Notes under the pieces: model-generated
Databases searched by the model: none
The model's input: only the letters and a program-made list of their open reading frames with translations
Told to the model about the DNA's origin: nothing
Assembly (NCBI GenBank): GCA_902826025.1
Contig: CADEDH010000031.1
Span: 24,354 to 59,960 of the forward strand
Length of the DNA: 35,607 bases
Source of the DNA: an uncultured Actinomycetes bacterium
GTDB taxonomy: Bacteria > Actinomycetota > Acidimicrobiia > Acidimicrobiales > SZUA-35
Direction of reading: 5' to 3'
Shown here: in pieces, positions 1,890 through 33,044 of the stretch
Position numbering within the stretch: position 1 is the first letter of the stretch
Layout of the letters: each line of letters opens with the position of its first letter
Translations under genes and position numbers: made by a program

Positions 1890-5916
<4,027 letters not shown>

Positions 5917-5920
5917 CGCC

Positions 5921-6226: not shown

Positions 6227-6309
6227 CGGGGGCGCCCTCCCATCCCGTTCGAACCCATCTCCTACCCGTCTCCCTCGTCTCTCGCCCTCTCAGCCCCCGG
6301 CCGGTCGCC

Positions 6310-6885: not shown

Positions 6886-7559
6886 CAGTGGTGACCTCCG
6901 TGGTCGTCATGGTCGTCGTGGGCGCCGGACTCCCGGTCGGCCTCATCGGGCGGTGCGGTCTGACCCAGCTCGGGGGCCCGCACGCCGTAGCCCAGCTCAC
7001 CCGACCAGCCGACCACGCCCTCGTAGGCGGCTTTGCCGGCCGGAGCGGTGGCCCGCATCCAGGCCGAGGTGTGCTCGTCCTCACCGGACCGCCAGTCTTC
7101 CCACGGCAGCTGCTGAGGCTTGCCGTCGTCGCCCACCAGGAGCTCGTCCTTGGTGTAGATGGCGTCGGCCCGGTTGGTGAACGAGAACTCGAACAGCTTG
7201 GTTTCGGTGATCGCCTCGGTGGGGCAGGCTTCAACACACAGATCGCAGTGGATGCAGCGCAGGTAGTTGATCTCGTAGACGTAGCCGTAGCGCTCGCCGG
7301 GCGAGCGGGGCTCGTCGGGCGGGTTGTCGGCCCCCCGCACGTAGATGCAGCGGGCCGGGCACACGCCGGCACACAGCTCGCACCCTATGCACTTCTCCAT
7401 CCCGTCTTCGTAGCGGTTGAGGACGTGCCGTCCGTGGAGCCGCTCGGGCTTGGGGGCCTTCTGGTCGCTGCTCCCGCCGCGCCCGCCCAGGTACTGGCGG
7501 GTGGTAACGCCCTCGCCCCACTTACGGAACGTGACGCCGAAACCTTCCAGGTATCCCAT
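6885..7559 (-). CDS. nuoI: NADH-quinone oxidoreductase subunit I (NuoI), His-rich tail
   Basis: This peripheral-arm subunit carries iron-sulfur clusters N6a and N6b, which pass electrons towards N2 and quinone. Two complete 4Fe-4S motifs are present: CIGCELCAGVCP and CIHCDLCVEACP. The product is 224 aa, longer than the usual 160-190. The extra length is a C-terminal stretch ending AHDDHDDHGGHH (residues 213-224), with five His. The last codons GGA GGT CAC CAC also form the ribosome binding site of nuoJ, so part of this tail may be dictated by translation signals. The start overlaps the nuoH stop by one base. Confidence 0.96.
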   Translation of the reverse strand: MGYLEGFGVTFRKWGEGVTTRQYLGGRGGSSDQKAPKPERLHGRHVLNRYEDGMEKCIGCELCAGVCPARCIYVRGADNPPDEPRSPGERYGYVYEINYLRCIHCDLCVEACPTEAITETKLFEFSFTNRADAIYTKDELLVGDDGKPQQLPWEDWRSGEDEHTSAWMRATAPAGKAAYEGVVGWSGELGYGVRAPELGQTAPPDEADRESGAHDDHDDHGGHH

Positions 7560-8863: not shown

Positions 8864-11346
8864 CAGTGGGTTCCTCCCGCGGCGCGGATCAGGATGTTGG
8901 TGACCGACCGGCCCACGGTGAGCAGGCTGCGCACGTCGAAGCCGGGCAGCCGGATCGCCATGCGGGCGGTGCGGGGCACCACGCTCGGATCGGCCACCCA
9001 GGGGGCCTCCAGCGTGGCGCCGTCGCGGTCGATGATGGCCGGTGTGCCTTCGGAGAGCCCGAGGGCCTCGACGTCGGCCGGATTCAGGTGGAGCAGGGCC
9101 GGCGGGGCCAGCCCGGCCAGCGAGGGCGACTCCTGCGCCATCGTGCCCTGGTCCCACAGCTTGTGGTCCACCACCAGCCGCAGCCCGTAACTCGACGGGG
9201 CGGGTGGGGTGGCGGCGTCGCCGAACTCGAGCACCCACTGCCGCTTGAGCGGGAGCACCGGGCCATCGTCGGCCGAGGCCAGTCGGTTCCAGTCGACCGA
9301 GGCGAAGGTGGTGGCCATCGAACTCAGCTCGGCCCGCAGTTCGGCCAGGGTGACGAAGCCGAGGTCGATCCCGAGGGCGGTGGCCAGCTCCACCGCCACC
9401 ATCCAGTCGGCCTTGGCCTGCCCCGGCGGGGTGACCTTGGCCAGCATCGGCGACAGGCGGCCTTCGAGGTTGAGGAACGACCCGTCGGACTCACCGAACA
9501 GGGCGGCGGGCAGGATCACGTCGGCCTCGGCGGCCGAGCTGGTGACGAAGGCGTCCACCGCGATCAGGGTCGACACCCGCTCCAGAGCGGCCTTGGCCAA
9601 CGCGGCGTCGGGGTAATCCTCCATGGGGTCGGCGCCCAGGAGCACGATGGTGTCGATCTCGCCGTTGGCCGCCGCCCGCATGATCCCGTCGGCGTCCTTG
9701 CCGTCGAAGTCGGGCACGAAGGGCCAGGCCGGGAAGTTGGCGCCGGCCCGCCGGACCCCGCCGGGAAGGAAACCGGCGGTGAGGCCCATCTCCAGGCCGC
9801 CGAGCACATTGCCCCGGCGCAGGGCGGGCAGGAAGGTGACGCCGGGTACGAGGCGCTGGAGGGCACCCACGGCGTCGGCGGTGTAGCGGGCCGACTCGGC
9901 CAGGTTGGCCCGGCCCAGCACCACGGTGACCGGGCGGCTGCCGTCGAGCAGCGCCCGGGCCGCTGTCATCTGATCGGCGGGCTGAGCGTCGGCCGACTCG
10001 TTCGACACGCCGGGGGCCAGCGCGGCGGCCACCTGGCCCACGGTGCCCGGCACGCAGTGGAGGCGGGCGGCGGCCAGGTCGGACAGGGAGGTGGGCCGGG
10101 GGGTGAGCTCGATCAGGCTCACGCCGTCTTCCACGATGGCGTGGCGGAGGCGGAGGTAGAGGGTGGGCAGCTCTTCCTTGGGGTCGGGCCCCAGCAGCAC
10201 CACCACTCCGCCGGGGGCGCAGACCTGGTTGATCGTGGCCCGGGGCAGGCCGAGGGCCATGGGGGCGGGCAGGCCGTCACTCAGCTGGCAGTCCACGTGA
10301 TCGGTGCCGATCACGCCCTTCATCAGCTTGGCCCAGGCGTACTGGCCCTCGATGTTCAGCCGGGCGCCGCCCAGCACGGCCACCCGGGCCGGATCGCCCC
10401 GCAGGGCCCGGGCCGCCGTCTTGGTGGCATCGGACCAGCGGCTGGGGGTGAGGTCGTCGCCCCCCCGGCGGAGCATGGGCTCGGTGACCCGGTTCTCGCT
10501 CTCGGTCACCTGGTAGGCGAAACGGTCCTTGTCGGACAGCCAGCCCCAGTTCACGGCATCGGAGTCGAGACCCAGGATGCGGGTGAGCTGGTTGCGGCTC
10601 GACTGGACCAGCACCCGGGCCCCGGTGGTGTCGACGGCGGAGGTGGACTCCACCGTCTCCAGGTCCCACGGGCGGGCCTTGAACCGGTAGGGCTGGGCCA
10701 GCAGAGCCCCCACGGGGCAGATCTGCACCGTGTTGCCACTGAAGTACGACGAGAACGGATGGTCGGGGAACGTGTTGACCTGGGTCTGGGCGCCCCGTCC
10801 GATGAAGTGGATCAGCGGGTCGCCGGCCACCTCCTTGGCGAATCGGGTGCAGCGGTCGCACAGGATGCAGCGCTCCCGGTCGAGGTCGACCAGCGGGCTG
10901 ATCGGGATCGGCTTCTCGTAGTGGCGCTTCTCCTCCACGAACCGGCTCTCGCCGGGGCCGAACGACAGGGTGTTGTCCTGGAGGGGGCACTCCCCGCCCT
11001 TGTCGCACACCGGGCAGTCGAGCGGATGGTTGATCAGCAGGAACTCGAGCACCCCGTCCTGGGCCGACTTGGTGGCCTCGGACTCGGTGTCGACCTTGAT
11101 ATCGGGCGTCACCGGCATCATGCAGGCCGGCTGGAGCCCGGGGCCCCGGCCCATGTCGACGTCGACCAGACACATGCGGCACATGCCCACCGGGTTCATC
11201 CGGGGGTGGTAGCAGAAGCGGGGGATGTGCACGCCGTGACGGTCGGCGGCGTCGATGAGCAGCTCGTCCTTGCGCGCCTCGACCGCCTTGCCGTTGAGGG
11301 TGAAGGGCACCCCGGTGGTGGTCTGCGGGTTGTCGGTGGCGGTCAT
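8863..11346 (-). CDS. nuoG: NADH-quinone oxidoreductase subunit G (NuoG)
   Basis: This is the large peripheral-arm subunit of complex I, relaying electrons from NuoE/NuoF towards NuoI. In the 827-aa product the 2Fe-2S cluster N1b ligands lie in FCYHPRMNPVGMCRMC. The His-Cys cluster N5 is HPLDCPVCDKGGEC, and N4 is CILCDRC with the later CPVGAL. A molybdopterin-oxidoreductase-like domain follows to the end, without evident cofactor function. After RPWDL (about residue 224) the region that holds the extra N7 cysteines in some bacteria reads TVESTSAVDTTGARV and has no Cys, so N7 is absent. The start at 11346 overlaps the nuoF stop by one base. Confidence 0.96.
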   Translation of the reverse strand: MTATDNPQTTTGVPFTLNGKAVEARKDELLIDAADRHGVHIPRFCYHPRMNPVGMCRMCLVDVDMGRGPGLQPACMMPVTPDIKVDTESEATKSAQDGVLEFLLINHPLDCPVCDKGGECPLQDNTLSFGPGESRFVEEKRHYEKPIPISPLVDLDRERCILCDRCTRFAKEVAGDPLIHFIGRGAQTQVNTFPDHPFSSYFSGNTVQICPVGALLAQPYRFKARPWDLETVESTSAVDTTGARVLVQSSRNQLTRILGLDSDAVNWGWLSDKDRFAYQVTESENRVTEPMLRRGGDDLTPSRWSDATKTAARALRGDPARVAVLGGARLNIEGQYAWAKLMKGVIGTDHVDCQLSDGLPAPMALGLPRATINQVCAPGGVVVLLGPDPKEELPTLYLRLRHAIVEDGVSLIELTPRPTSLSDLAAARLHCVPGTVGQVAAALAPGVSNESADAQPADQMTAARALLDGSRPVTVVLGRANLAESARYTADAVGALQRLVPGVTFLPALRRGNVLGGLEMGLTAGFLPGGVRRAGANFPAWPFVPDFDGKDADGIMRAAANGEIDTIVLLGADPMEDYPDAALAKAALERVSTLIAVDAFVTSSAAEADVILPAALFGESDGSFLNLEGRLSPMLAKVTPPGQAKADWMVAVELATALGIDLGFVTLAELRAELSSMATTFASVDWNRLASADDGPVLPLKRQWVLEFGDAATPPAPSSYGLRLVVDHKLWDQGTMAQESPSLAGLAPPALLHLNPADVEALGLSEGTPAIIDRDGATLEAPWVADPSVVPRTARMAIRLPGFDVRSLLTVGRSVTNILIRAAGGTH

Positions 11347-12815
11347 CAGTGGCCCCCGGCGGCCACGGCGGTGGCATCGGCGTCGTGGGCGTGCCCGTGG
11401 CCGTCGTGGTTGTCTTCGTGGTCGTGGTCGACCTCGTCGTGGTCGCCGTGGTCGAGCACGATCTTGGCCTCGAACTCGGAGCGGAACCGGCGGATGGCCG
11501 ACACGATCGGGGCCACCGACGACGGGCCCAGCGGGCAGATCGTGGTTTGGCGAGGCGGGAAGGGCACGGCCGACAGGCCGGCATCCTCGAACGAGGCGGC
11601 CGGGTAACGCCCGGGGCTGATCTGGGCGCCGACCGACAGCAGCAGGTCGATGTCCTCCTGTCGGCCGTGGCCGTCGAGGATGCGCTCCAGGATCTTCTCC
11701 TCCCAGCTCGTGCCCTCCCGGCAGGGAGTGCACTTGCCGCACGACTCGCGGGCGTAGAAGCGAACCAGCCGCAAGCAGGCCCGTACCGCGTCGGTGGAGT
11801 CGTCCATCACCACCAGGGCGCCCGAGCCGAGCATCGAGCCGGCGGCGCCCACGTCGGACGCTTCGAGCTTCAGGTCGAGCTGGTCTCCGAAGAACCAGGG
11901 GGCGGAGCCGCCGCCGGGGATGAACATCTTCAGCTCGTGACCGTCGCGGATGCCCTGACAGTAGTTCTCACCGTAGAACAGGTCGCGGAAGGAGATGTTG
12001 CCGGCTTCGACCTCGTACACCCCGGGCCGCTTCACGTGGCCGCTTACGGCCAGCATGCGGGTGCCCGGGGACTTCTCCGAGCCGTACTGCTTGTAGGCGT
12101 CGGCGCCGTTTATGAGCAGCCAATTCAGGTTGGACAGGGTCTCGACGTTGTTGACGATCGTGGGCTTGAGGTACAGGCCCTTGGCCGCCGGGAAGAACGG
12201 GGGCTTGAGGCGGGGCATGCCCCGGTTGCCCTCCAGGCTCTCGATGAGGGCCGTCTCCTCCCCCACGATGTAGGCCCCGGCCCCCCAGTGGAGCACCACG
12301 TCGATGTCCACGTCGGTGCCGAGGATGCCCTTGCCAACGAAGTTGTTGGCGTAGGCGTCGTTCAGGGCCTGGGCGATGCGCTCCTGGGCCAGGGCCATCT
12401 CGCCCCGGACGTAGAGGAAGCACTGGTTGAGGCCCAGGGCGTAGCAGGCGATCACGCAGCCCTCGATGAGCTGGTGGGGATCGCGCTCCATGAGCAGCCG
12501 ATCCTTGTAGGTGCCGGGCTCCGATTCGTCGCCGTTGACCACCAGATAGCGGGGCCACACAGGGGGCATGAAGCCCCACTTCACACCGGCGGGGAAGCCG
12601 GCGCCGCCCCGGCCCAGCAGAACGGCGTCCTTCACCAGGTTGGCCACCTCGGCCGGGGCCATCGACATGGCCTTGCGCAGACCGTCGTAGCCCTCAGTGG
12701 CCAGGTACCGCTCCAGCGTGTGGCTCTCGGGGTCGGCGAATCGCCGGGTGACGATCTTCGGGCCGTCGTTGTCGACGTAGCCCGGCGCGTGGGCCACGTA
12801 GGTGTTCGTCGCCAT
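11346..12815 (-). CDS. nuoF: NADH-quinone oxidoreductase subunit F (NuoF), His/Asp-rich tail
   Basis: This is the NADH- and FMN-binding subunit where electrons enter complex I, 489 aa. The flavin/NADH glycine-rich segment is GRGGAGFPAGVKWGF (about residues 67-81). Cluster N3 is bound by ESCGKCTPCREGT (about 357-369) and the later TTICPLG. The last 35 residues (455-489) are unusual: nine His among Asp, Glu and Gly, a potential metal-binding tail absent from typical NuoF proteins (about 430-445 aa). The gene starts directly after the nuoE stop (TAGATG). Its final codons carry a G-rich run that serves nuoG. Confidence 0.96.
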   Translation of the reverse strand: MATNTYVAHAPGYVDNDGPKIVTRRFADPESHTLERYLATEGYDGLRKAMSMAPAEVANLVKDAVLLGRGGAGFPAGVKWGFMPPVWPRYLVVNGDESEPGTYKDRLLMERDPHQLIEGCVIACYALGLNQCFLYVRGEMALAQERIAQALNDAYANNFVGKGILGTDVDIDVVLHWGAGAYIVGEETALIESLEGNRGMPRLKPPFFPAAKGLYLKPTIVNNVETLSNLNWLLINGADAYKQYGSEKSPGTRMLAVSGHVKRPGVYEVEAGNISFRDLFYGENYCQGIRDGHELKMFIPGGGSAPWFFGDQLDLKLEASDVGAAGSMLGSGALVVMDDSTDAVRACLRLVRFYARESCGKCTPCREGTSWEEKILERILDGHGRQEDIDLLLSVGAQISPGRYPAASFEDAGLSAVPFPPRQTTICPLGPSSVAPIVSAIRRFRSEFEAKIVLDHGDHDEVDHDHEDNHDGHGHAHDADATAVAAGGH

Positions 12816-13448
12816 CTACGACCCTGCCTTCTGTTCGCTCGGGGGTGCCTGGCGGGCGGTGAACCAGGCGGGGGTGCCGGCCACCTCGGGCGCCTCGATG
12901 CCACCCAGCCGGTCGGCCGGGATGTGCTGGCGGACCCGCTGCAATGTGCCGTGGTGAGGTATGTCGGTGCGGGCGCCGGAGCGCAGATCGTCCACCAGCT
13001 TGCGCAGCCCGGCGGGGTCGACCCGGTACTCGTAGCGGTAGTTGACCTGGAGGCAGGGGCCTTCGGTGCAGGCGGCGATGCACTCCACGTCTTCCAGCGT
13101 GATCATGCCGTCGGCGGTGGTGCCACCGGGGCGGACGCCGAGCACCTTCTCGGCCTCGTGCAGCAGTTCCTCGCCCCCGGTGAGCTGGCAGGCGATGTTG
13201 GTGCAGATGTTGAGCAGGTACCGGCCCACCGGCTCCCGCTTGAACATCTCGTAGAACGAGCAGGTGCCGAGCACTTCGGCCGGGGTGATGCCCACCAGCT
13301 CGGCCAGGTGCTCCATGGCGTCGTCGGCCACGTAGCCGTCCTGCTCCTGGGCCAGGTGCAGCAACGGGATCAGGGCCGACTTCGGGCGGGGGTAGCGGCT
13401 GATGATCTCGCTGGCGAGCAGCTCGTTTTCAGGGGTCAGCCGACTCAT
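12816..13448 (-). CDS. nuoE: NADH-quinone oxidoreductase subunit E (NuoE)
   Basis: This is a thioredoxin-fold subunit holding the 2Fe-2S cluster N1a beside the flavin of NuoF. In the 210-aa product the ligands appear as CTNIAC and, about 40 residues later, CIAAC, the usual C-x4-C plus C-x3-C pattern. The N-terminal helical domain contains the family sequence GYVADDAMEHLAELVGITPA. The last 40 residues extend beyond the thioredoxin fold, are rich in Ala and Pro, and have no evident motif. The ATG at 13448 overlaps the nuoD stop by four bases. Confidence 0.96.
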   Translation of the reverse strand: MSRLTPENELLASEIISRYPRPKSALIPLLHLAQEQDGYVADDAMEHLAELVGITPAEVLGTCSFYEMFKREPVGRYLLNICTNIACQLTGGEELLHEAEKVLGVRPGGTTADGMITLEDVECIAACTEGPCLQVNYRYEYRVDPAGLRKLVDDLRSGARTDIPHHGTLQRVRQHIPADRLGGIEAPEVAGTPAWFTARQAPPSEQKAGS

Positions 13449-14869
13449 CGGTCAACCTCCCCGAGCACGGGATCCACGGAGGCGATCACGGCCACGGCAT
13501 CGGCCAGGAAGCCCTCGTCCATCATGTGTGGCATCGTCTGCAGGTTCACGAAGCTCGGCCCTCGGATGTGCATGCGGTACGGCTTGGGCCCCCCGTCGGA
13601 AACGAGATAGCACCCCAGCTCGCCCCGGGGCGACTCCACAGCCACGTAGACCTCGCCCTCGGGCACCTTGAAGCCCTCGGTGAAGATCTTGAAGTGGTGG
13701 ATCAGGGCCTCCATCGACTCATCGATCCGGGCCCGGGGCGGGGGTGTGACCTTGGTGTCGGCCGAGCGGTAGTCACCCGACGGCATCCGTTCCACGATCT
13801 GGCGGACGATCCGGATCGACTCCCGGATCTCGTTGAGGCGGATGGCGTAGCGGTCGAAGGCGTCGCCGTAGGAACCGACGAGCACGTCGAAGTCGACCTC
13901 GTCGTAGGCCAGGTACGGCATGTCCCGCCGCAGGTCCCAGCTGATGCCGGTGGAGCGCAGGATGGGGCCGGTGGCCGACAGGGCGACCGCCTCGGCCTGG
14001 GAGATCACGCCTACGCCCTGGAGCCGGTCACGCCAGATGGGCTGGCCGGTCATGAGGATGTCGTACTCCTCCAGCCGGGGCGGGAGGAGATCCATCAAAT
14101 CGAGGACGTCGCGCCGCCAGCCGTCGGGCAGGTCGGCCGCCACCCCGCCGGGCCGGATGTAGTTGTGGTTCATCCGCAGGCCCGTGACCTTCTGGAAGAA
14201 GCGGAGCACGACCTCCCGTTCCCGCCAGCCGTAGATCATCATCGACACGGCGCCGATGTCCATACCGCCGGTGGCCATCGACAACAGGTGCGACGAGATC
14301 CGGTTCAGCTCGCACATGAGCATCCGGATCCAGACGGCCCGGGGCGGGACCTCGAGGCCCAGCAACTGCTCGGTGGCCATCGAGAACACCAGCTCGTTGA
14401 AGAACGGGGAGGCGTAATCCATCCGGGTGACGTTGGTGGGCCCCTGGAGGAAGGTGAGGCTCTCCGCCGTCTTCTCCATGCCGGTGTGGAGGTAGCCGAT
14501 GATCGGCTTGGACCGCAGCACGGTCTCGCCGTCGAGCTCCAGCATCAGGCGCAGCACACCGTGGGTGGAGGGGTGGACGGGGCCCATGTTGACCAGCATG
14601 GTCTGGTCGTTCTCGCCCCCGATGAGCGGGCCGTCGATGTCGGCCGCCGCCTGCACTTCGCTCATGCGCAGCACCGCCCCGCGGCGGGGCAGGAGGTGGA
14701 GCTGGCCCGAGCCGTCGTCTTCGGGCTCGGGGCCGAAGTCGGCCGGGACAGTCTCGGTGGACCCGGCACCGGCGGCAGCGATCTCGGATGGGGCGGCAGC
14801 GCTGTCGACACCGGTGGTGTCGTCGCCGGTCTGTTGCTCGGGCGAGGCGGAGTCTTCGGTTACGGTCAT
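13445..14869 (-). CDS. nuoD: NADH-quinone oxidoreductase subunit D (NuoD)
   Basis: This quinone-site subunit of complex I is related to the large subunit of NiFe hydrogenases. The core is unmistakable: GPVHPSTHGVLRLMLELDGE, then GYLHTGMEKTAESL, then the C-terminal ESPRGELGCYLVSDG. The ATG at 14869 gives 474 aa, with a 68-residue Ala/Ser/Glu/Asp-rich N-terminal extension. An internal ATG at 14665 (MSEVQAAADIDG) would give 406 aa, nearer the family norm. Neither has a clear ribosome binding site. I keep the longer form because the extension shows normal codon bias, but the start is uncertain. A 62-base gap separates it from nuoC. Confidence 0.93.
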   Translation of the reverse strand: MTVTEDSASPEQQTGDDTTGVDSAAAPSEIAAAGAGSTETVPADFGPEPEDDGSGQLHLLPRRGAVLRMSEVQAAADIDGPLIGGENDQTMLVNMGPVHPSTHGVLRLMLELDGETVLRSKPIIGYLHTGMEKTAESLTFLQGPTNVTRMDYASPFFNELVFSMATEQLLGLEVPPRAVWIRMLMCELNRISSHLLSMATGGMDIGAVSMMIYGWREREVVLRFFQKVTGLRMNHNYIRPGGVAADLPDGWRRDVLDLMDLLPPRLEEYDILMTGQPIWRDRLQGVGVISQAEAVALSATGPILRSTGISWDLRRDMPYLAYDEVDFDVLVGSYGDAFDRYAIRLNEIRESIRIVRQIVERMPSGDYRSADTKVTPPPRARIDESMEALIHHFKIFTEGFKVPEGEVYVAVESPRGELGCYLVSDGGPKPYRMHIRGPSFVNLQTMPHMMDEGFLADAVAVIASVDPVLGEVDR

Positions 14870-14931
14870 GGCGGATCTGCTCGTTGCGGGGCCGGGGGAG
14901 CCGCTCGGGAGGCGAGCGTGCTCGGGGTGGT

Positions 14932-15471
14932 TCAGCGGTGGGTGTTGGCGCTCGGGGCCTTGAACTGGACGGGGATGGCCCCGATGCCGAAGTCCTTGCG
15001 CAGCGGGTGGCCTTCCCAGGTCTCGGGCATCAGTATCCGCGACAGGTCGGGATGACCCACGAAGGTGATACCGACGAGGTCGTAGACCTCGCGTTCCAGG
15101 AAGTCGGTGCCGGGGTAAATGACGTAGAGCGAAGCGATCGAGGGATCGGAGGCCGGCACCTGCACCCGGGCCCGTAGGCGCTCCCGGCGCAGGTGCGACA
15201 CGAACGAGGCCACCACCTCGAACCGCTCCGGCTCCACGCCGGCGGGGAGGTCGCGGTCGGCGTGGTGTGTGAGGTAGTCGACCGCAGTGACGTCGACGCA
15301 CATGTTCCAGCCGTCGGCCAGCAGCGCCTTCGCCGTGGCCAGCCATTCCTCACGCGTCGGGTGGATCACCCGCTGGCCACGGGACCAGCTGACGAGGGCG
15401 CCGTACGCGGTTTCGGGCTCGGGCTCCGGCTCGGGAGCCTCGGCCTCGTTCTCGGCGGCGGTGTCGGTCAT
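14932..15471 (-). CDS. nuoC: NADH-quinone oxidoreductase subunit C (NuoC)
   Basis: This is the 30-kDa structural subunit of the peripheral arm, next to NuoD and the quinone site, 179 aa. It carries the family signature [20 protein letters not shown] and then [15 protein letters not shown] at the C-terminal end. Residues 3-22 are a run of Glu, Pro and Ala that looks disordered. The gene is separate from nuoD, unlike the enterobacterial nuoCD fusion. The ATG at 15471 overlaps the nuoB stop by four bases. Confidence 0.95.
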
Positions 15472-16058
15472 CGGTGGCGGCCGATCGTGGTGAGCTGCGG
15501 GGCCCCCTGGCCGTCGCGCTGCTCGATCGTGATGCTGGCCCCGGCGCCGGTGGCCGAGCGCCGCTGCAGCAACTCACCCGACTCGATCTTGGCGTGGAGG
15601 GTGGTGATGGCGTGCAACAGGGTCTCGGGACCGGGCGGGCAGCCCGGGGCGTACACATCGACCGGGACGACCTGATCGACGCCCTGCACGATGGCGTAGT
15701 TGTTGAACATCCCGCCGCTGGAGGCGCAGACCCCCATGGAGATGACCCACTTCGGTTCCATCATCTGGTCGTAGATCTGGCGGAGGACGGGGGCCATCTT
15801 CTGGCTCACCCGGCCGGCCACGATCATCACGTCGGCCTGGCGGGGGGAGGCCCGGAAGACCTCCATGCCGAGGCGGGCGATGTCGTAGTGGGAGCCGCCG
15901 GTGGCCATCATCTCGATGGCGCAGCAGGCCAGGCCGAACGACGCCGGCCACGACGACCGGGCCCGGGACCACTGGACCAGCTTCTCCAGCGGAGCGGTGA
16001 GCACATTGTGCTCGAGGCCCTCGAAGCCCCGATCCTGCACGTTGCGGATGAGGCCCAT
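15468..16058 (-). CDS. nuoB: NADH-quinone oxidoreductase subunit B (NuoB)
   Basis: This subunit binds cluster N2, the last electron carrier before quinone. The N2 ligands are visible as the tandem cysteines in [11 protein letters not shown], the Cys of MGVCASSGG, and the Cys of [10 protein letters not shown]. The product is 196 aa, within the normal range. The ATG at 16058 overlaps the nuoA stop by one base. The short C-terminal tail after LLQRRSATG is polar and variable in this family. Confidence 0.97.
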
Positions 16059-16561
16059 CAGGCCGCCACCCCACTGCCCGCTTCCTCCGCCGCCACGCCG
16101 GCGTCGAGCACGGTGACCGTGCGCCCGTCCTGGCCCACGCGGCGCACGGTGCTGGCCGTGGTGCGGTCGGCCGACCGCATCGGGTCTTGGCGACGGGAGA
16201 CCTGCAGCGGCCCCCAGTCGAGGGCGCCCTTGGAGATCAGGTACACGAAGGACTCGAACACCAGGGCCGAGAAGATCAGGACCGACACCAGGCCGAACAG
16301 GCCCAGCTCCTGGTAGTTCACGGCCCACGGGTAGAGGAACACGATCTCGATGTCGAAGATCACGAACAGCATGGCCACGAGGTAGAAGCGCACCGGGAAC
16401 CGCTCGGGCAGGTCCCGCCCGGGGGTGATGCCGCACTCGTAGGGGGCCAGCTTCTCCGCCGTCGGATTACGGGGGGCGAAGATCTTCGATGCGACGAAGC
16501 TCAGCCCTGCGAACAACCCGGCCAGGACGAGCAGTGCCAGAACCGGTAGGTACTGGGCCAT
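16058..16561 (-). CDS. nuoA: NADH-quinone oxidoreductase subunit A (NuoA)
   Basis: This is a three-helix membrane subunit near the quinone chamber. Family features are PYECGI in the first loop and [20 protein letters not shown] spanning helix 2. The product is 167 aa against a usual 115-130. The extra 45 residues after [12 protein letters not shown] are polar and probably cytoplasmic. The ATG at 16561 has a strong ribosome binding site (GGAGG, five bases upstream). The 64-base gap to the preceding 345-aa gene contains a 7-bp hairpin but no T tract, so read-through from the bc genes is likely. Confidence 0.95.
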
Positions 16562-16625: not shown

Positions 16626-17663
16626 CTAGGCCGCGGCTCGAACGCTTTCTTCCCGCTTGTCCCGTAGGTGCAGGTTCCAGGCCAGGATCGCGAAGATCAG
16701 ACCGGTGAACACCGAGAACATAGCCGGCGTGAAGCGCAATCCGCTGAAAAGCGCCGGCACGGGGCCACCGCGATCGCGCTCCATGATCACGCTCACCAAC
16801 GGCGCCTCGGTGTCGGCGGCGGCCACCGGCGGGGGCTGGCCGGGCAGCGCGGCCTGAGCCTGGGCTGCCCGCACCTGCATGACGATGTACTCCCCCCGGA
16901 AGTAGGGGTGGAGAATCGTCTCGTTCAGCGTGTGCGCCACACGCCGGACAATCCCGGGGTTCTCCGCCAGGACCGGCTTACCGTCGCGGATGAACGCCCC
17001 GAAGCGCTCGGGCACGTAGCCGCCGGTCTCGAACACGCCCTCCTCGATGAGGAAGGCGTCGACCGAAGCCTGGGCCTCACCCCGGATCGGATCCGACGCC
17101 TCGAGGTAGCGCCAGTCGGCCAGGTCCCGGCCGCGTGACGCCACCAGCGCCGCCTCCTGGGCCACATCGGGGTCGGGAATGTCGGCCACGGTGGCCGACT
17201 CCGCCAATTCGGCGGCCGCCTTCTCACGGGTGGCGTCGTCGGTGATCCGCTCCAGGACGGCCTCGTTGTCGATCCCGAGCGAGCCGAGACCGTTGGGAGG
17301 GAGGCCGTTCTCGGCGTCCACCAGTCTCTCAGCCTCGGTCACCTGGGAGAACAGCAGCCCGTCGTCGCCCTCGGCGGCGTCATCGACGTTGATCTCCACC
17401 AGATGCCAGGTGGGGGCTTGGCCGGCCCAGCCGATGCCGTAGATCGTCCACACGATCCCCATCAGGAACATCCAGCCGAACAGGCCGGCCAGAGAGATGA
17501 GGAAACCCTTCCGGGTGCCGGTGTTGGTGGCGACGATGAGGTATGTGCCACCGATCAGCACCGCCACGGCGGTGAGAACGCTGAGCAGGCCCCGAAAGAA
17601 GGGGTCGAACCCCATGCCCTCCAGGAAGGCCAACGTGGTGGTCATCGCAGTGATGCTGGCCAT
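16626..17663 (-). CDS. Membrane protein of unknown function between bc complex and nuo
   Basis: I do not recognise this family. The 345-aa product has two close N-terminal helices (about residues 22-44 and 51-77). A polar domain of about 230 residues follows, probably outside the membrane, and then one C-terminal helix (about 310-330) with a basic end. The middle domain contains no CxxCH heme motif, no iron-sulfur motif and no catalytic signature, and is rich in Ala, Glu and Asp. The ATG at 17663 overlaps the diheme cytochrome stop by one base (TGATG). A GTG just before it (17666) is an alternative start. Its place inside the bc/complex I gene series suggests an accessory subunit or assembly factor of the bc complex. 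Confidence 0.85.
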   Translation of the reverse strand: MASITAMTTTLAFLEGMGFDPFFRGLLSVLTAVAVLIGGTYLIVATNTGTRKGFLISLAGLFGWMFLMGIVWTIYGIGWAGQAPTWHLVEINVDDAAEGDDGLLFSQVTEAERLVDAENGLPPNGLGSLGIDNEAVLERITDDATREKAAAELAESATVADIPDPDVAQEAALVASRGRDLADWRYLEASDPIRGEAQASVDAFLIEEGVFETGGYVPERFGAFIRDGKPVLAENPGIVRRVAHTLNETILHPYFRGEYIVMQVRAAQAQAALPGQPPPVAAADTEAPLVSVIMERDRGGPVPALFSGLRFTPAMFSVFTGLIFAILAWNLHLRDKREESVRAAA

Positions 17664-19210
17664 CACAGCCCCCGCTCGTAGTCGATAACGGCCTGGATGT
17701 AGTCGGGCGGCAGGCTGCCCCCGAAGCCGGGCATGAGGCCAGCGGCGCTCTGACCGCCCCGCCCGTAGCCCTTACCGGCCACGGCGCCCGTATAGACGAA
17801 CTCGTAGTGGGCGTCGCTCGTCCGCTCCGGCATCTCGACGACATCGCACTGGGAGGCCAGCCGACCGTCGCCCAGTGTGATCACCTGACCGCCGACATCG
17901 GCCGGCGTCAGCTCCGGTGGGTCTTCGAACGTCCCACTCCCGTCGGTCTTGAGGGCCGGGGTGATCTCGGGGTCGAAGGGATAGGCGTCGCCCGTGGGCG
18001 GCTGCCACAGCTTCGAGACGAAGTCACACGAGGCCAAGTCGCCGCCGGCGTCGGGGATGCCGGGGGCGCTCACGCCCTCGTCGAGGATCAGATACCGCTC
18101 GCCGTCGGCGTCGACCGGCACACCGGTGTCGTCGAGGCGGATCTTGTCGCCGTCGGCCGACTCGATGTAGGAGCCGTCGTTGTCGGCCAGGCCACCGGCC
18201 GGCATCCAGTTGCCGTTGGAGTCCTTCCAGGTGTCATCGGGGAAGCGGGCCTTGGTGCGGCCACCACAGAGGTTGAAGCCGATACCCGACGGGTTACCGC
18301 CACCGCAGCCCTCGATGCCTTCCTCGAGCACGTTGTCGAGCCCGACCGACCAGCCGGCGGTGTGGCAGCGGGCGCAGCTCAGCGAGCCGCCTTCGAAGCC
18401 GCTGACGAGCCCGAGGTTGAACACCGCCTCGCCCACGGTCTGGAACTCGCCATCCTGGATGGAGCGGTCGACCTCAGCCCGAATCGCCGCCTCCCGGGTC
18501 TCGGCCGCCTCCTGGGCGGCGAGGGACTCCGGATCATCGTCGAGGGCCGGATCGCCCGCCTCCTGAATGGCCAAGGGATCGAGGCTCTGCACCTGCAAGG
18601 TGCGAAGGTAGATGATCACGTTGTTGACTGCCTGCTCGGTGAGCGGACCGCCACCGGGCGTGCCCCACGCCGCCATGGGCGAGCCGGGCCGGCCGTAGTT
18701 GAGGATGTAGCGGACCTCGTCTTCGGAGTAGCGCAGCAGCACGTTGTTCAGAGCCGGCGCCTTCCAGCTGACGTTGGCCAGGAACTGGCCGTCGGCGTCC
18801 TGCAGCACGTAGGCCGCGCCGCCGCCCGCGCCGCCGGCGGCGTGGCAGTTCACGCACTGGGCGTCGACGGTGTAGGTGTTCGCCCCCCGCACCTCGAACG
18901 AGAGGTTGTAGGCGTCCACCGCACCGTCCTGGCGGCCCGGCTCGGCCAACCAGTAGACGGGAAGACCGACGGCCAACAGCGCCAGCATGCCGAGGGCGAA
19001 CGTGAGGGCCCGGTCGAGTTTGGGGCCTTCGAGCTCCTCGTCGGTCAGGTAGGGCTTGCGGTTGGGGGCCAGCTCGATCTCGGAACCGAGCTCGGGCTTG
19101 GCCGACCGGATGTTCCGGACGAACATCAGCACGAAGCCGACGAACGTGAGGGCGCCGACGGTCAGGCCGATGGCGCGGAAATCAGCGGCGAGGATGGCAG
19201 TGCTGATCAT
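17663..19210 (-). CDS. Membrane-anchored diheme cytochrome c of the bc complex
   Basis: This is probably the c-type cytochrome subunit that receives electrons from the Rieske protein. The 515-aa product has two N-terminal helices (about residues 12-31 and 66-86), followed by two c-type domains. The heme motifs are CVNCH (119-123) and CARCH (279-283). PGSPMAAWG and LMPGFGGSLP supply candidate Met axial ligands for the first and second heme. The second domain carries a roughly 150-residue Asp/Gly-rich insertion between its heme motif and the Met segment. It also contains extra Cys residues (in GCGGG, NLCGG, LASCD, ASQCD) that might form disulfides. The start overlaps the Rieske stop by one base. 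Heliobacterial bc complexes also use a diheme c subunit, but homology to that protein is not shown here. Confidence 0.88.
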   Translation of the reverse strand: MISTAILAADFRAIGLTVGALTFVGFVLMFVRNIRSAKPELGSEIELAPNRKPYLTDEELEGPKLDRALTFALGMLALLAVGLPVYWLAEPGRQDGAVDAYNLSFEVRGANTYTVDAQCVNCHAAGGAGGGAAYVLQDADGQFLANVSWKAPALNNVLLRYSEDEVRYILNYGRPGSPMAAWGTPGGGPLTEQAVNNVIIYLRTLQVQSLDPLAIQEAGDPALDDDPESLAAQEAAETREAAIRAEVDRSIQDGEFQTVGEAVFNLGLVSGFEGGSLSCARCHTAGWSVGLDNVLEEGIEGCGGGNPSGIGFNLCGGRTKARFPDDTWKDSNGNWMPAGGLADNDGSYIESADGDKIRLDDTGVPVDADGERYLILDEGVSAPGIPDAGGDLASCDFVSKLWQPPTGDAYPFDPEITPALKTDGSGTFEDPPELTPADVGGQVITLGDGRLASQCDVVEMPERTSDAHYEFVYTGAVAGKGYGRGGQSAAGLMPGFGGSLPPDYIQAVIDYERGL

Positions 19211-20082
19211 CAGTGGCCTCCGCCCCCGGCGCCGATGCAGTTCGGACCCTCGGCCTCCTGGCCGGTGGTGTTGGTGCCGATGGCGGGGCCCTGGATGACC
19301 ACGCCGGTGTCGACGACCAGGTCATTGCCCGACGTCACTTCCATCGGGAAGCGGTCCATACCCCGGGGGGCGGGGCCGCCCTTCTTCTCCCCCACCCGGT
19401 TGTACTTCGAGCCGTGGCACGGGCATTCGAACCACTGTGAGGTGAGGCACTGCGGAACCCGGCAACCCAGATGGGGGCAGGTCTGGTAGAGGGCCGAGAC
19501 GCCGGCCTGCAGACCCTGCTCCACCTGCGAGTAGAAGGTGTACTGCTGGGCCGCCTTGGCCAGGGCCGCCTCGGGGTACTCGGTGACCCACATGCGGCCC
19601 TCGGGGACGTAGAAGAAGCCGTTGCCGGCCTTGATGGCGGCCTTGATGTCGTCGATCTTGCCCACGTTGACCTTGGAGCCGAACCCGCCTCCGGGCGGCG
19701 GCCACAGGAAGCCCAGGCAGGCGGCGCCGAAGGCGCTGAGGCCGAGACCGAAGGTGGTGATGATGCCCCGGTTGAGGAACTGGCGCCGGGTGACACCCAG
19801 CGTCTCGGGGTCGGGCGGGACCCAGACCACAGGGGGGCTCGAGTCAGCAGCGGGGACGACGGCCCCGGCCCGGGCGGCCAGCTCGACCTCGCGACCGGTG
19901 GCGACGCCGGGGGTGGCGGCGCCGACGCCGACCGTCTCTTTGTCTCGCGAGCGGTCGCGCTTCACCGCCTCGCCCGAGAGTTGACCAATCGCGCTGGACG
20001 TGTCGGCCCGGCGGAACGACGCACCGAGTAGCACCAGGCCGAGGATGGCCAGGAGCACGATGCCGATGATGAAGGGGTTCAT
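19210..20082 (-). CDS. qcrA: Rieske iron-sulfur subunit of the bc complex
   Basis: This is the Rieske 2Fe-2S protein that takes one electron from quinol and passes it to cytochrome c. The cluster-binding loops are CPHLGC (residues 202-207) and CPCHGSKYN (220-228), both complete. The 290-aa product has a first helix at about residues 4-21. A second helix follows TRRQFLNRG (about 98-106), a twin-arginine-like motif, and is the usual Rieske anchor. The linker between the helices is polar and contains VWVPPDPETLGVTRRQFLNR-type sequence typical of actinobacterial Rieske proteins. The last codons GGA GGC CAC form the ribosome binding site of the diheme cytochrome gene. Confidence 0.94.
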   Translation of the reverse strand: MNPFIIGIVLLAILGLVLLGASFRRADTSSAIGQLSGEAVKRDRSRDKETVGVGAATPGVATGREVELAARAGAVVPAADSSPPVVWVPPDPETLGVTRRQFLNRGIITTFGLGLSAFGAACLGFLWPPPGGGFGSKVNVGKIDDIKAAIKAGNGFFYVPEGRMWVTEYPEAALAKAAQQYTFYSQVEQGLQAGVSALYQTCPHLGCRVPQCLTSQWFECPCHGSKYNRVGEKKGGPAPRGMDRFPMEVTSGNDLVVDTGVVIQGPAIGTNTTGQEAEGPNCIGAGGGGH

Positions 20083-20101: not shown

Positions 20102-20902
20102 TTACAGGTCGAAGAAGATGCCCGACTGCCACGGGAAGACGAAGTTGAAGCCCGGGCCCCGGAAGAACGATCCGATGATCACGAGTACGGCCCAGAACAT
20201 CAGGAACACCGTGAACACCGACACCGCGAACTTGCGGGCCTCGGGTCGGTTATCGGGGTTCTTGTCGATGTAGGGGGCGAGCATCAGCACGAACAGGCCC
20301 ATGCCGGGGATGGTCACGCCGGCCACCATGGGGTGGAACATCGTGAGCAGCTCCTGCAGGCCCAGGAAGTACCACGGGGCCTTCGACGGGTTCGGCGTGC
20401 GGTTCACGTCGGCCAGCGACAGCAGCGGGGCGTTCACGAAGACCGAGAAGAAGGTGAGGAAAGCCGTGCAGAACAGGGCCGCCCCGAACTCCACGATGAT
20501 CAGGTGGGGCCAGGTGTGGACCTTGTCCAGGGGGGAGGTCTTGATGTCCTGGATCGACCCCGACTTCACCACCGTGAGCAGCCGTTGGGTGTGCCCGGCG
20601 GGGCCGGTCATGGTGGGCAGGGGGCCACTGGCGGTGGCCGCCGCCACGTTGGCTGCGGCGGCGGGAGCCACTGCGGTGGCCGTTCCCCCACCGCCGGCCG
20701 GCTCGTCGCCGCCCCGCTGGCGAGCCGAGCGCGACCGCTCGAGCAGGTGGGCGGGAATCTTGGAGCCGCCGCCACCGCCGTCGGCGGGGGCGCTGGCGCC
20801 GCTGGGCGCGGCGGCCGCCGGCTCGGCCGGGGTGGCGGCCGGTTCGGCCTTCTTCCGGGCCTCTTCGGCCCGCTTGCGGAGATGCTCTGGGATTTCGGTC
20901 AT
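20102..20902 (-). CDS. Cytochrome b subunit IV (C-terminal half of cytochrome b)
   Basis: This is the C-terminal part of cytochrome b as a separate protein, as in b6f and heliobacterial complexes; it completes the quinol-oxidation site. The hydrophobic half (about residues 125-260) has three helices and NPSKAPWYFLGLQELL. The Qo-site PEWY motif thus reads APWY, without the Glu. The first 100 residues are an unusual Ala/Gly/Pro-rich extension carrying two related segments, EIPEHLRKRAEEARKK (3-18) and KIPAHLLERSRSARQR. A similar segment opens the divergent cytochrome c gene. The product is 266 aa against a usual 160 for subunit IV. An 18-base gap separates it from cytochrome b6. Confidence 0.9.
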   Translation of the reverse strand: MTEIPEHLRKRAEEARKKAEPAATPAEPAAAAPSGASAPADGGGGGSKIPAHLLERSRSARQRGGDEPAGGGGTATAVAPAAAANVAAATASGPLPTMTGPAGHTQRLLTVVKSGSIQDIKTSPLDKVHTWPHLIIVEFGAALFCTAFLTFFSVFVNAPLLSLADVNRTPNPSKAPWYFLGLQELLTMFHPMVAGVTIPGMGLFVLMLAPYIDKNPDNRPEARKFAVSVFTVFLMFWAVLVIIGSFFRGPGFNFVFPWQSGIFFDL

Positions 20903-20920: not shown

Positions 20921-21712
20921 CTAGAGCGGACCGGAGATGCCGCCGTCCTTACGGACACGCCAGAAGTGGATGGCCATGAAGATGACGGTGACGAAGGGCA
21001 GCAGGAGCACGTGCAGCACGTACCAGCGGAGCAGGGTGTTGGTGCCGATCACCTGGCCGCCGAGCAGGACGAACTTCACCTGGGGCCCGAGGACCGGGGT
21101 GTAGCCCATCATGTTGGTGCCCACGGTGACGGCCCACAGGGCCAGCTGGTCCCACGGCAGCAGGTAGCCGGTGAACGACAGCAGCAGGGTGAACTGCAGC
21201 AGGTTCACACCGATCACCCAGTTGAACTCCCGGGGTGCTTTGTAGGCCCCGTGGTAGAACACCCGGGCCATGTGGAGGAAGACCGAGATCACCATGAGGT
21301 GGGCCCCCCATCGGTGCATGTTGCGCACCAGCAGGCCGAAGGCGATCTGCGTCTGCAGGGTCTCGATGTCACCCCAGGCCGCGGCGGCGGTGGGGCGATA
21401 GAAGAACATCAGGAAGATGCCGGTGATCGTGAGCAGGATGAACAGGAAGAAGCTGAGGCCGCCGAGGCACAGCGTGTAGCTCACCTTCACTGCGTGCCGC
21501 TTCACCTTCACCGGGTGGAGGTGGTACAGCACGCTGTTCATGATCACGTACGACCGGTTCCGGGGGCTGTCGGTGTAGCCCTTGCGGAACACCGAGCCGG
21601 GCCGGAAGATCGAGCTCCATGCCTGGGAGCTCTGCACGTAGTCGGTGACCTGGGCGGCGCCGGAGCTCATCCTCTCGGCGAGCGACATCTTGTCCTGGAT
21701 CGAGCGGGCCAT
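20921..21712 (-). CDS. qcrB: Cytochrome b6-type subunit (N-terminal half of cytochrome b)
   Basis: This diheme membrane subunit carries electrons across the membrane in the Q cycle. The 263-aa product has four core helices. Heme ligand pairs are the His of NMHRWG with FLHMAR (13 residues between) and the His of VLHVLL with AIHFWR (14 between). The wider second spacing is the known mark of b6-type proteins. GYLLPWDQLALWA is the conserved quinol-site region. The N-terminal 60 residues are polar, with NSVLYHLHPVKVKRH just before helix 1. The 113-base gap upstream (21713-21825) holds a GAGGAAG ribosome binding site. A TAGCCT hexamer at 21784-21789 in the gap might be part of an internal promoter, but the -35 spacing is poor. 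Confidence 0.93.
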   Translation of the reverse strand: MARSIQDKMSLAERMSSGAAQVTDYVQSSQAWSSIFRPGSVFRKGYTDSPRNRSYVIMNSVLYHLHPVKVKRHAVKVSYTLCLGGLSFFLFILLTITGIFLMFFYRPTAAAAWGDIETLQTQIAFGLLVRNMHRWGAHLMVISVFLHMARVFYHGAYKAPREFNWVIGVNLLQFTLLLSFTGYLLPWDQLALWAVTVGTNMMGYTPVLGPQVKFVLLGGQVIGTNTLLRWYVLHVLLLPFVTVIFMAIHFWRVRKDGGISGPL

Positions 21713-21825: not shown

Positions 21826-22242
21826 TCAGGCGAGGCGCATCCCGTAGCCGTAGCCGTAGGAGCTGGTGCGTTGGTGGAGATCACCGGTGGGGGGGGAATC
21901 ACCGATCTTGCCCAGGATGATCACGCCGGTGGGGCACCGGTCGACGCAGAGGGCACAGCGGGTGCACACGTCGTCGTCGATGGTGAAGATGAAGGCGTCG
22001 GCCGGGTCGTCGCCCGGCTTGGCGCAGCCGTAGGCCTCGGCCACGGCATCCACCGTCTGCATGTGGATGCACTTCCACGGGCAGATGTCGACGCAGCCCT
22101 CACAGGCGATGCACTCGCTCTGGTCGATGTGGATGAACTGCTTGGGCTTGACCGCCCGGGCCATGTAGTCCGCATCCACCTCCATGAGGAGGTAGTCGCT
22201 GCGGAACTCCGGCAGTGGTGGGTTGGCATCAGTGGTGGCCAT
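21826..22242 (-). CDS. Ferredoxin with two 4Fe-4S clusters, in the bc operon
   Basis: This is a small soluble iron-sulfur protein of 138 aa with two complete motifs: CIACEGCVDICP and, about 45 residues later, CTRCALCVDRCP. A linker with GCAKPGDDPADAF lies between them. The tail after the clusters is short and Gly/Tyr-rich (SSYGYGYGMRLA), and no membrane helix is seen. It lies three bases after the 149-aa membrane gene and 113 bases before cytochrome b6. Ferredoxin genes are not part of a standard bc complex. It may donate electrons to or accept them from the complex, or bind the adjacent membrane protein; this is inference from position only. Confidence 0.9.
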   Translation of the reverse strand: MATTDANPPLPEFRSDYLLMEVDADYMARAVKPKQFIHIDQSECIACEGCVDICPWKCIHMQTVDAVAEAYGCAKPGDDPADAFIFTIDDDVCTRCALCVDRCPTGVIILGKIGDSPPTGDLHQRTSSYGYGYGMRLA

Positions 22243-22245: not shown

Positions 22246-22695
22246 TCAGCCCTGCTTGATCAACGGTCGACCGTAGGTGCTCTTCACGACCTGCTTGCCC
22301 TTGCTGGCGGCCCGCTTGCCACGGTTCTGCCAGAAGAGCCAGAGACCGATCTGGCCGCCCAGGAACACGATGTAGAACACGGCGGCGATCGAGTCGGACA
22401 CCGTGCGGTAGGTCACGTCGAAAGGGAAGTTCCCGCCCAGGCTCCTGGGCTGGAGGATGTTGCCCGGGCCGTACACCATGCGGGAGGCCCGCCAGCCCAG
22501 CTCGTTCTCGGCCAACGTGAGCCACTGATGGGGGACTATGCCGTAGGCCAGGAAGCTGATGAAGTAGACGTAGGTGGCGCCCACCATGGCCTCACCCCAG
22601 CTCACCGGGGTACCGACGGGACGACGCTTGGCGTAGTAGAACACGCCCCCGGTCAGCACCAGGAGAGCCAGGATGGAGAAGACGAGGGCGACCAC
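22246..22695 (-). CDS. Three-helix membrane protein of unknown function, first gene of the series
   Basis: I do not recognise this family. The 149-aa product has hydrophobic helices at about residues 2-22, 33-54 and 97-118. A polar loop lies between helices 2 and 3 (LAENELGWRASRMVYGPGN), and the cytoplasmic tail is basic (GKRAASKGKQVVKS). No cysteine or heme motif is present. The GTG start at 22695 is chosen because AGGAG lies eight bases upstream; the open frame beyond it is only antisense to other sequence. It is the promoter-proximal gene of the bc/nuo series and is followed by the ferredoxin after three bases. It may be the membrane partner of that ferredoxin. Confidence 0.82.
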   Translation of the reverse strand: MVALVFSILALLVLTGGVFYYAKRRPVGTPVSWGEAMVGATYVYFISFLAYGIVPHQWLTLAENELGWRASRMVYGPGNILQPRSLGGNFPFDVTYRTVSDSIAAVFYIVFLGGQIGLWLFWQNRGKRAASKGKQVVKSTYGRPLIKQG

Positions 22696-22856
22696 GGACG
22701 GGACTCCTGTACGTTTTCGGCGACATTGCGGACTGGTACAAGCAGATCTGGCACGAGCCACCGGCCGGAACCTTCCCCCGGAACTGCTCCGGGGCCTCGC
22801 TCGGACCGGTGGCCGAGCCCCCGCCAGGCGGGTGCTCGACGACATCGTGTTGGACT

Positions 22857-22874
22857 TTGTGAAGTCGCGCACAA
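22857..22874. promoter_or_regulatory. Candidate Rex operator
   Basis: TTGTGAAGTCGCGCACAA matches the Rex operator form TTGTGAA-N4-TTCACAA at 12 of 14 defined bases. The outer TTTGTG/CACAAA arms (22856-22875) are a perfect palindrome. Rex represses respiratory genes when NADH/NAD+ is low, and in Streptomyces its targets include nuo, cyd and rex-hemACD. The site overlaps plausible promoter elements of both divergent transcripts. A rex gene is present in this window. Confidence 0.7.
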
Positions 22875-22904
22875 ATCTAGTCCTGCGGCGACAGAACCAC
22901 GCAA
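22874..22904 (-). promoter_or_regulatory. Candidate promoter of the bc/nuo series
   Basis: On the minus strand TTGCGT (22904-22899) and TAGATT (22879-22874) are separated by 19 bases. TAGATT fits the TAnnnT form of the -10 box and resembles the TAGCCT box in front of rex. The candidate Rex operator begins at the last base of the -10 box and would cover the start point. On the plus strand TTGGAC (22850-22855) and AAATCT (22873-22878) with a 17-base spacer could serve the cytochrome gene, with the operator inside the spacer. No transcription data support either. Confidence 0.4.
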
Positions 22905-23052: not shown

Positions 23053-23913
23053 TTGAGCGAGATCCCCGAACACCTGTTGAAGCGAAGCCGCTCGGCCAAG
23101 GCGGGCAAGTCCGGTGGGGATGCCGGGGCCTCGGAGTCCGCCCCGGCCGCGGCCAGCCCCTCGGCCCCCGCGCCCGCTGGCGGCTCGGCCCCGGCGGCGG
23201 CCGCTTCCGTGCCGGCCAACCTGCCCAACCTCGATCCCGAACCGGTCCCGGCCAAGCCCGAGCCCCACTTCGTGGTGGCGGCCAAGGCTCGTCGGCGGGT
23301 GCCGGTGTGGGCCCTGCCCATCGTGGCCGCCCTGCCGGTGTGGGCCATCGCCTATCCCGGCACCATGCAGGAGCCCCCCCGGGAGGATCCGCTCATCACC
23401 GAGTCGACGCTGCTCTACACCGAAGAAGCCGGGTGCGCCGGCTGCCACGGCGCCGGCGGAGGCGGCGGTCTGGGTTACGCCTTCACCAACGAGTCGTTGC
23501 TCGAGACCTTCCCCGACCCGATCGACCAGATGGTGCACGTGGCCCGGGGCTCGGCCGCCATTCAGGGCCAGGAGTACGGGGCCGAGCGCAGAGACGGCGC
23601 CCGACGGGTGTCCGGGGCCAAAGGCAGCGGCCAGATGCCGGCCCAGGAGAAGCAGCTCACCCAGATCAAGCTGGAGATGGTGATCTTCCACGAGCGGGAG
23701 CTGGCCGGCGAGGAGCAGACGTCGCCGGAGTACATCGAGTGGATGGACAACATGCGGGAGCGGTTCGAGGGTGGTGAGGCGACGCCGATCGATCTCGATT
23801 TCCTCCTCGCCTGCGCCAACCCCGAGATCACCCCTGGCGCCACCGGCGAGGGATCCCCCGATCCCGAGACGGAACCCTGCCCCGGCCCGCCCCCCGCCGA
23901 GGAAGACGCCTGA
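23053..23913 (+). CDS. Membrane-anchored monoheme cytochrome c
   Basis: This is a single-heme c-type cytochrome, probably an electron carrier linked to the neighbouring bc complex. In the 286-aa product the heme motif is CAGCH (128-132), followed by GAGGGGGLGYAF; a candidate Met ligand is in GSGQMPAQE. One helix (about residues 81-99, VPVWALPIVAALPVWAIAY) follows an 80-residue Ala/Pro-rich N-terminal region, so the heme domain faces outward. The N-terminus reads SEIPEHLLKRSRSAKAG, closely like two segments of subunit IV. A TTG start at 23053 is chosen because GGAGG lies four bases upstream. A GTG at 22972 would add 27 residues translated from the tandem repeats and is less likely. It is transcribed away from the bc series. 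Confidence 0.85.
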   Translation: MSEIPEHLLKRSRSAKAGKSGGDAGASESAPAAASPSAPAPAGGSAPAAAASVPANLPNLDPEPVPAKPEPHFVVAAKARRRVPVWALPIVAALPVWAIAYPGTMQEPPREDPLITESTLLYTEEAGCAGCHGAGGGGGLGYAFTNESLLETFPDPIDQMVHVARGSAAIQGQEYGAERRDGARRVSGAKGSGQMPAQEKQLTQIKLEMVIFHERELAGEEQTSPEYIEWMDNMRERFEGGEATPIDLDFLLACANPEITPGATGEGSPDPETEPCPGPPPAEEDA

Positions 23914-32323: not shown

Positions 32324-32992
32324 TCATGAGGTCTCCAGTGGAACGCCGACGCCGGTGCTGGAGGCCAGCCCCCGCTGCTGATAGAAGCTGAGGATCTGCA
32401 GCTCAGTAGCCAGATCGACCCGCCGCACCACCACCTGGTCGGGCACGGCGATGGGGTGGGCGGTGAAGTTCAGGATTGACGTCACACCCGCCGCCACCAG
32501 GGCGTCGGCCACTTCCTGGGCCGCTTCGGCCGGGGTGGCGATCACGCCGACGGCGACTGACCGCTCCCGTACCAGGGCGGCCAGGCGGCTCACCGGGTGG
32601 ACCTCGATCCCCGACACGGAGGTGCCGGCCTTGGCCGGGTCGTTGTCGAGGAGGAGCCGGATGGGGAACCCCCGCTCGGCCAGCCCGGTGTAGTTGGCCA
32701 GGGCCCGACCCAGGTTGCCGGCGCCCACCACGGCCACCGGCCACTCCTGGTTGAGGCCGAGCTCCACGCTGATCTCGAACACCAGGTACTTCACGTCGTA
32801 GCCCACGCCCCGGGTGCCGGTGATGCCCAGCGAAGCGAGGTCGCGCCGCACGGTGGCCGAGTTGACCCCCACCCGCTCGGCCAGGTGGTCCGACGACACC
32901 GTGGAGGTGTCGGCAGCCGCCAGCTCGACCAGCGAGCGCAGATAGGCCGGTAGTCGGCCCACGGTGGCGGCAGAGATGGCCCCGGAGCTCAC
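32324..32992 (-). CDS. rex: Redox-sensing transcriptional repressor Rex
   Basis: This is a dimeric DNA-binding repressor that senses NADH/NAD+. In the 222-aa product the N-terminal winged helix (about residues 12-75) contains LAERVGVNSATVRRDLASLG, the recognition helix region. GTRGVGYDV follows, and the NAD-binding Rossmann motif is VVGAGNLGRAL with GAGNLG at 90-95. The C-terminal swapped helix includes LQILSFYQQ. The GTG start at 32992 has no ribosome binding site but sits six bases after a -10 box, so the mRNA is probably leaderless. Likely targets in this window are its own operon and the bc/nuo series. Confidence 0.95.
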   Translation of the reverse strand: MSSGAISAATVGRLPAYLRSLVELAAADTSTVSSDHLAERVGVNSATVRRDLASLGITGTRGVGYDVKYLVFEISVELGLNQEWPVAVVGAGNLGRALANYTGLAERGFPIRLLLDNDPAKAGTSVSGIEVHPVSRLAALVRERSVAVGVIATPAEAAQEVADALVAAGVTSILNFTAHPIAVPDQVVVRRVDLATELQILSFYQQRGLASSTGVGVPLETS

Positions 32993-32998: not shown

Positions 32999-33028
32999 AG
33001 GCTAGGGAACCGGAGGCCCGGTTCACAA
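32999..33028 (-). promoter_or_regulatory. Leaderless promoter of rex-hem with a Rex half-site
   Basis: On the minus strand TTGTGA (33028-33023) and TAGCCT (33004-32999) are separated by 18 bases. The rex GTG begins six bases after the -10 box, so transcription would start at the start codon. The -35 box is part of TTGTGAA, one full half of a Rex operator; the other half is not recognisable at the normal spacing. Autoregulation is therefore possible but weakly supported. Confidence 0.5.
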
Positions 33029-33044
33029 GTGCACGAGCGTGCTT

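Follow-up and report, generated by a model that had tools for sequence, protein, structure and literature searches.

Gene content of the locus

The stretch of DNA analysed here (35,607 nucleotides, positions 24,354 to 59,960 of contig CADEDH010000031.1; hereafter the window) is largely occupied by a minus-strand gene series that begins with a bc complex and continues into complex I. The first gene (22246-22698) encodes a 15-kDa membrane protein with a GTG start near 22695 preceded by AGGAG, and is followed by a gene for a 4Fe-4S dicluster ferredoxin-like protein (21826-22242; 71-87% identity to relatives), which lies within the bc operon in all relatives read. Next are the N-terminal, b6-type half of cytochrome b (20921-21712; PF00033) and its C-terminal, subunit IV-type half (20102-20902; PF00032), encoded separately in the b6/subunit IV style, a Rieske protein (19210-20082; PF00355), a membrane-bound cytochrome c (17663-19210; PF13442 and PF00034) and ORF346, a 346-residue membrane protein (16626-17666) that is kept in relatives. 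The first gene product and ORF346 are thus two conserved membrane proteins that match no Pfam or NCBIfam family. The NCBIfam model NF040969 (ExtP, a selenite/tellurite reduction cytochrome) passed its cut-off on the b6 half, an ordinary cytochrome b6, so the ExtP name would mislead annotation.

Complex I genes nuoA to nuoN occupy 204-16561 on the same strand. Those tested were assigned by Pfam (PF00507, PF01058, PF00329, PF01257, PF01512, PF00384, PF00499 and PF00361) and the remainder were named by position and layout. nuoA starts 64 nt past ORF346, and the gaps from the first gene to nuoA are 64 nt or shorter, save one of 113 nt. Bc and nuo genes therefore share one strand, short gaps and, as described below, a conserved order, which suggests a single operon and a shared transcript. 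A promoter scan of the 64-nt gap before nuoA found none; this gap could nonetheless carry another promoter. Upstream of the series and divergent from it lies a plus-strand cytochrome c gene (23053-23913), a conserved neighbour with a CAGCH motif, weak matches to PF13442 and PF00034, and a TTG start after GGAGG.

The Rex protein

As the original prediction had stated, a rex gene lies in the same window (32324-32992, minus strand), and hemA and hemB follow it on that strand. Its product scored 287 bits against the NF003992 equivalog model (cut-off 226), combines a winged-helix N-terminal domain (PF06971) with an NAD(H)-binding Rossmann domain (PF02629), matches Rex chains in the PDB at E-values down to 8e-43, and is the only Rex of the genome.

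In the Thermotoga maritima Rex-operator structure, two residues of the recognition helix, Arg48 and Lys49, read the half-site (PMC8836258). Compared with that protein (7WB3), the window's Rex keeps the operator-G-reading Arg48 (PMC8836258), and in its family Lys49 is replaced by Arg, Gln46 by Thr or Ser, and Ser52 often by Ala. In family f1, the Rex proteins read carry Arg at the Lys49 position and the bc sites carry C. Strict covariation of Lys49 to Arg with operator A to C was considered and rejected as a rule, because TTGTGCA also stands at bc in two genomes with Lys49 (G092 and G109), and C occurs commonly in rex operators elsewhere.

Predicted operator and promoter

Between the divergent cytochrome c gene and the bc series, about midway between their start codons, lies the predicted Rex operator TTGTGAAGTCGCGCACAA (22857-22874; TTGTGCGCGACTTCACAA on the bc strand). 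It agrees with the Rex consensus, the inverted repeat TTGTGAAN4TTCACAA, at 12 of the 14 defined bases, as originally predicted, with both mismatches in the CG of the right half. No other position in the window matched with three or fewer mismatches (0.18 expected from shuffles), and a motif scan of the whole 6.87 Mb genome returned it as the only match with two or fewer. At up to three mismatches the genome held 22 matches, against 13 for a reversed control pattern. A wider Rex regulon in this genome was considered and set aside: there was no further site with two or fewer mismatches, and three-mismatch matches barely exceeded the control.

A chance match in a GC-rich genome, serving no regulator, could account for a site of this quality: matches of at least 12/14 are expected about 1.4 times per genome of this size and GC content under a composition model and 6 times under a first-order Markov simulation. 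With 1 to 6 such matches expected, the match by itself falls short of genome-wide significance and was rejected as proof, even though only 1.6e-4 such matches are expected in the 353-bp intergenic region. Against chance, most relatives examined carry the site at the orthologous place and control patterns gave counts near zero (see below); we regard the chance reading as already refuted by this conservation and accord it a negligible probability.

On the bc strand a -10 box, TAGATT (22874-22879, minus strand), overlaps the operator edge, and a TANNNT motif begins 4 to 6 bases ahead of the operator in 19 of 23 site-bearing relatives; the minus-strand -10 box of the original prediction is in this way borne out. 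A candidate -35 box, TTGCGT (22899-22904, minus strand), is separated from it by a 19-nt spacer, and TTGCG or TTTGC is likewise placed in many relatives. A simple promoter scan of the bc/nuo start region, which permits only spacers of 16-18 nt, gave no match. The site thus lies within a predicted promoter, with a conserved -10, of a respiratory operon. From this geometry, bc/nuo transcription would begin near 22866, within the operator, and bound Rex would therefore block initiation.

The pair of -35 and -10 boxes that had also been proposed around the site on the plus strand did not hold up: no such pair was conserved on the cytochrome c side among the site-bearing relatives compared, and a plus-strand cytochrome c promoter at the site was set aside for want of a conserved -10. 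This bears on whether the site is a Rex operator that serves the divergent cytochrome c as much as, or more than, bc/nuo, as its position midway between the two start codons and the presence of cytochrome c as divergent neighbour in most relatives might suggest. That assignment is improbable given the promoter comparison and the arrangement in one genus (G011 and relatives), where cytochrome c lies upstream on the bc strand and the site remains with bc.

Conservation of the site and gene order

By its named neighbours the window belongs to Acidimicrobiales. Gene order was read in 20 relatives as far as their contigs extend. In nearly all of them the site lies between a divergent cytochrome c gene and a series made up of the 15-kDa protein, ferredoxin, b6, subunit IV, Rieske protein, cytochrome c, ORF346 and nuoA, and the order bc-orf346-nuo is conserved wherever the contigs extend far enough. 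Within the 400 bp preceding the series, 23 of 28 genomes (the window's genome included) carry a site with at most three mismatches, mostly one or two, one being the usual number; the reversed control pattern never reached two or fewer in the same regions. Among 77 further GTDB loci, 54 had two or fewer mismatches, none had exactly three and 23 had four or more, a distribution that is bimodal since the class of three is empty; here too the control never reached two or fewer. The two sets partly overlap, and in the combined set 53 of 78 genomes carry a site with three or fewer mismatches at the bc promoter.

The search of related genomes with a Rex matrix that had been proposed as a check was carried out in leave-one-out form. 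The window site scored 23.3 bits, and scores ranged from 16.6 to 27.2 bits across the 24 genomes outside four rex-less ones (G004, G009, G014 and G017), which scored -2.6 to 1.1 bits.

In a distant actinobacterial family (f40), three rex-bearing genomes (L313, L314 and L315) have a site with zero or one mismatch, 510-545 bp before the ferredoxin gene of the bc operon; most other families of the phylum with a related ferredoxin gene have no such site. The f40 site sits behind a membrane-protein gene alike in place and size. Separately, three contigs titled Bifidobacterium breve or Phycisphaeraceae (L166, L178 and L180) show the Acidimicrobiales gene order, and these titles are probably wrong, or the bins mixed.

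Co-occurrence of site and rex

Presence of rex was scored in the compared genomes by a PF06971 search. Rex and the site were both found in 51 of the 78 genomes, rex without the site in 4, neither in 21 and the site without rex in 2; the site is thus present in 51/55 rex-bearing and 2/23 rex-less genomes (Fisher p 5e-13, a value inflated because kinship is ignored). A tree built from ferredoxin and cytochrome b together requires at least seven changes each for rex and for the site, and independent pairs gave three concordant and no discordant cases, too few for significance (sign test median p 0.25). Rex-less clades recur (g4, g9, a 12-genome clade and a clade of L182, L201 and L206), each without the site. 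In the rex-less G009, G017 and G014 the -10 sequence GTAGATT is retained and the adjoining operator has decayed. A full-length Rex protein search of ten genomes lacking PF06971 found none, with one weak match in G004 confined to the Rossmann part.

Exceptions run in both directions. Rex is present with no clear site in G024, G103, G106 and G108, and also in the f7 genera g36 and g42 (G178, G232 and G254); losing the site while keeping rex is not contradictory. Two genomes, G019 (84% complete) and G081, keep the site with no rex detected, which would contradict a Rex assignment provided that their assemblies are complete.

These two genomes also favour a different protein, TetR-like or Crp-like, whose operator would have the identical palindrome. 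So do identical palindromes which precede cytochrome P450 genes in several relatives, one of them (G022) with a TetR-like frame alongside; given these copies, the palindrome is not Rex-specific. An operator of this kind at bc is nevertheless unlikely: clades without rex repeatedly lack the site as well, some of them retaining the promoter beside a decayed operator; the rex gene is found some 10 kb upstream of the site in the window and in several relatives; and nuo is an established Rex target (PMC5355995). Perfect or one-mismatch copies of TTGTGAAN4TTCACAA were seen before P450-like genes at six loci (L212, L219, L221, L223, L225 and L226), and the P450-side palindromes are perhaps operators of another regulator.

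Conservation across genomes, co-occurrence with rex and promoter geometry together support the Rex operator that had been placed on the bc/nuo promoter. Rex very probably binds at 22857-22874, and it is highly likely that this site is a Rex operator over the start of a joint complex III/complex I operon under NADH-released repression. According to this model, the single minus-strand operon would encode a b6c-type complex III (with ferredoxin and cytochrome c) and then all of complex I; at a low NADH/NAD+ ratio a Rex dimer would cover the start point and block transcription, and as NADH accumulates Rex would let go, so that complexes I and III would be produced together. The effect of NADH on this operator is assumed by analogy with the Rex family. 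Since the site is order-wide and nearly always missing where rex is missing, a single redox sensor probably governs the output of much of the respiratory chain. Of the one-sensor control originally envisaged, the bc/nuo part is upheld by conservation, and the divergent cytochrome c part is weaker, given the lack of a conserved promoter and the arrangement in G011.

Comparison with known Rex systems

Streptomyces avermitilis Rex binds operators at nuoA1-N1, rex-hemAC1DB, cydA1B1CD and atpI, and NADH weakens binding (PMC5355995), which agrees with the statement in the original prediction that Rex control of nuo is known in Streptomyces. The footprinted rex-hemAC1DB operator of that species is TTGTGCACGCGTTCACAA, with the half-site variant TTGTGCA (PMC5355995), and its A-to-C change also occurs in the bc sites of the window's family. 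The system resembles the Streptomyces Rex regulon (S. coelicolor and S. avermitilis) in repressor family, palindrome, nuo and rex-hem targets and an operator that overlaps the promoter (PMC5355995). It differs in that Streptomyces nuo has its own operator, with qcr unmentioned (PMC5355995), whereas in the window a single operator precedes a joint bc/nuo series with a b6c-type split cytochrome b. Rex operators of the Bacillota (ldh, cyd, ndh and adh) share TTGTGAAN4TTCACAA and NADH-released repression (PMC13077300, PMC5355995); they act chiefly on fermentation, cytochrome bd and NDH-2 rather than on complexes I and III. A literature search that did not extend to the comparative study of Ravcheev et al. 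2012 returned no report tying Rex to a bc operon or to Acidimicrobiia, and a prior prediction of the bc target is possible for that reason.

Likely Rex sites were also seen before a class II fumarase-like gene in two relatives (G028 and G060), and G006 has two tandem perfect sites before a type II NADH dehydrogenase-like gene (the fumarase and G006 loci being L207, L208 and L215).

A direct repeat at the rex promoter

Control of heme synthesis, also part of the original prediction, would run via the rex promoter, and the case for it is weaker, as the window's family has there a direct repeat of half-sites and no palindromic operator. The window's copy, TCGTGCA-C-TTGTGAA (33022-33036, minus strand; contig 57375-57389), has no second occurrence in its genome and is conserved among members of the family. 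A palindromic operator some 40-60 bp ahead of the helix-turn-helix coding start is found at many rex promoters of other families. Of 29 rex promoters in the window's own family, 22 carry TYGTGMA-N-TTGTGAA in its place, exactly or in a near form; a near form has at most two mismatches to TTGTGCANTTGTGAA on the rex strand or, in G008, is this repeat on the opposite strand. Because these promoters also supplied the pattern, the count is only descriptive. The second unit of the repeat occupies the -35 position of what appears to be a leaderless promoter.

No genome has more than one copy of the exact repeat. Of the 25 exact matches, 22 fall at rex, and the reversed control pattern matched nowhere in 61 genomes. 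As a general motif the direct repeat was rejected, given that it occurs no more than once per genome and the non-rex matches (G004, G014 and G052) apparently lie within unrelated coding frames. At aveR, S. avermitilis Rex is reported to give weak protection of two adjacent half-sites (PMC5355995). A scheme in which complexes I and III are both set by a single NADH sensor via the one operator and, in addition, rex-hem would be under autocontrol via the direct repeat, with its 8-bp period, is put forward tentatively and is rather doubtful as a whole. If it is true, direct-repeat half-sites in place of a palindrome would be a new operator geometry for Rex.

Significance

Complexes I and III pump most of the protons of aerobic respiration. 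The reach of Rex, known for nuo, cyd and heme genes, would here be extended to the bc complex. The pattern is order-wide and recurs in the distant family f40. Repressor and operator are repeatedly missing together, sometimes with the promoter kept, which makes the proposed switch directly testable. In this little-cultured bacterial order, complexes I and III both appear to depend on one NADH-released switch.
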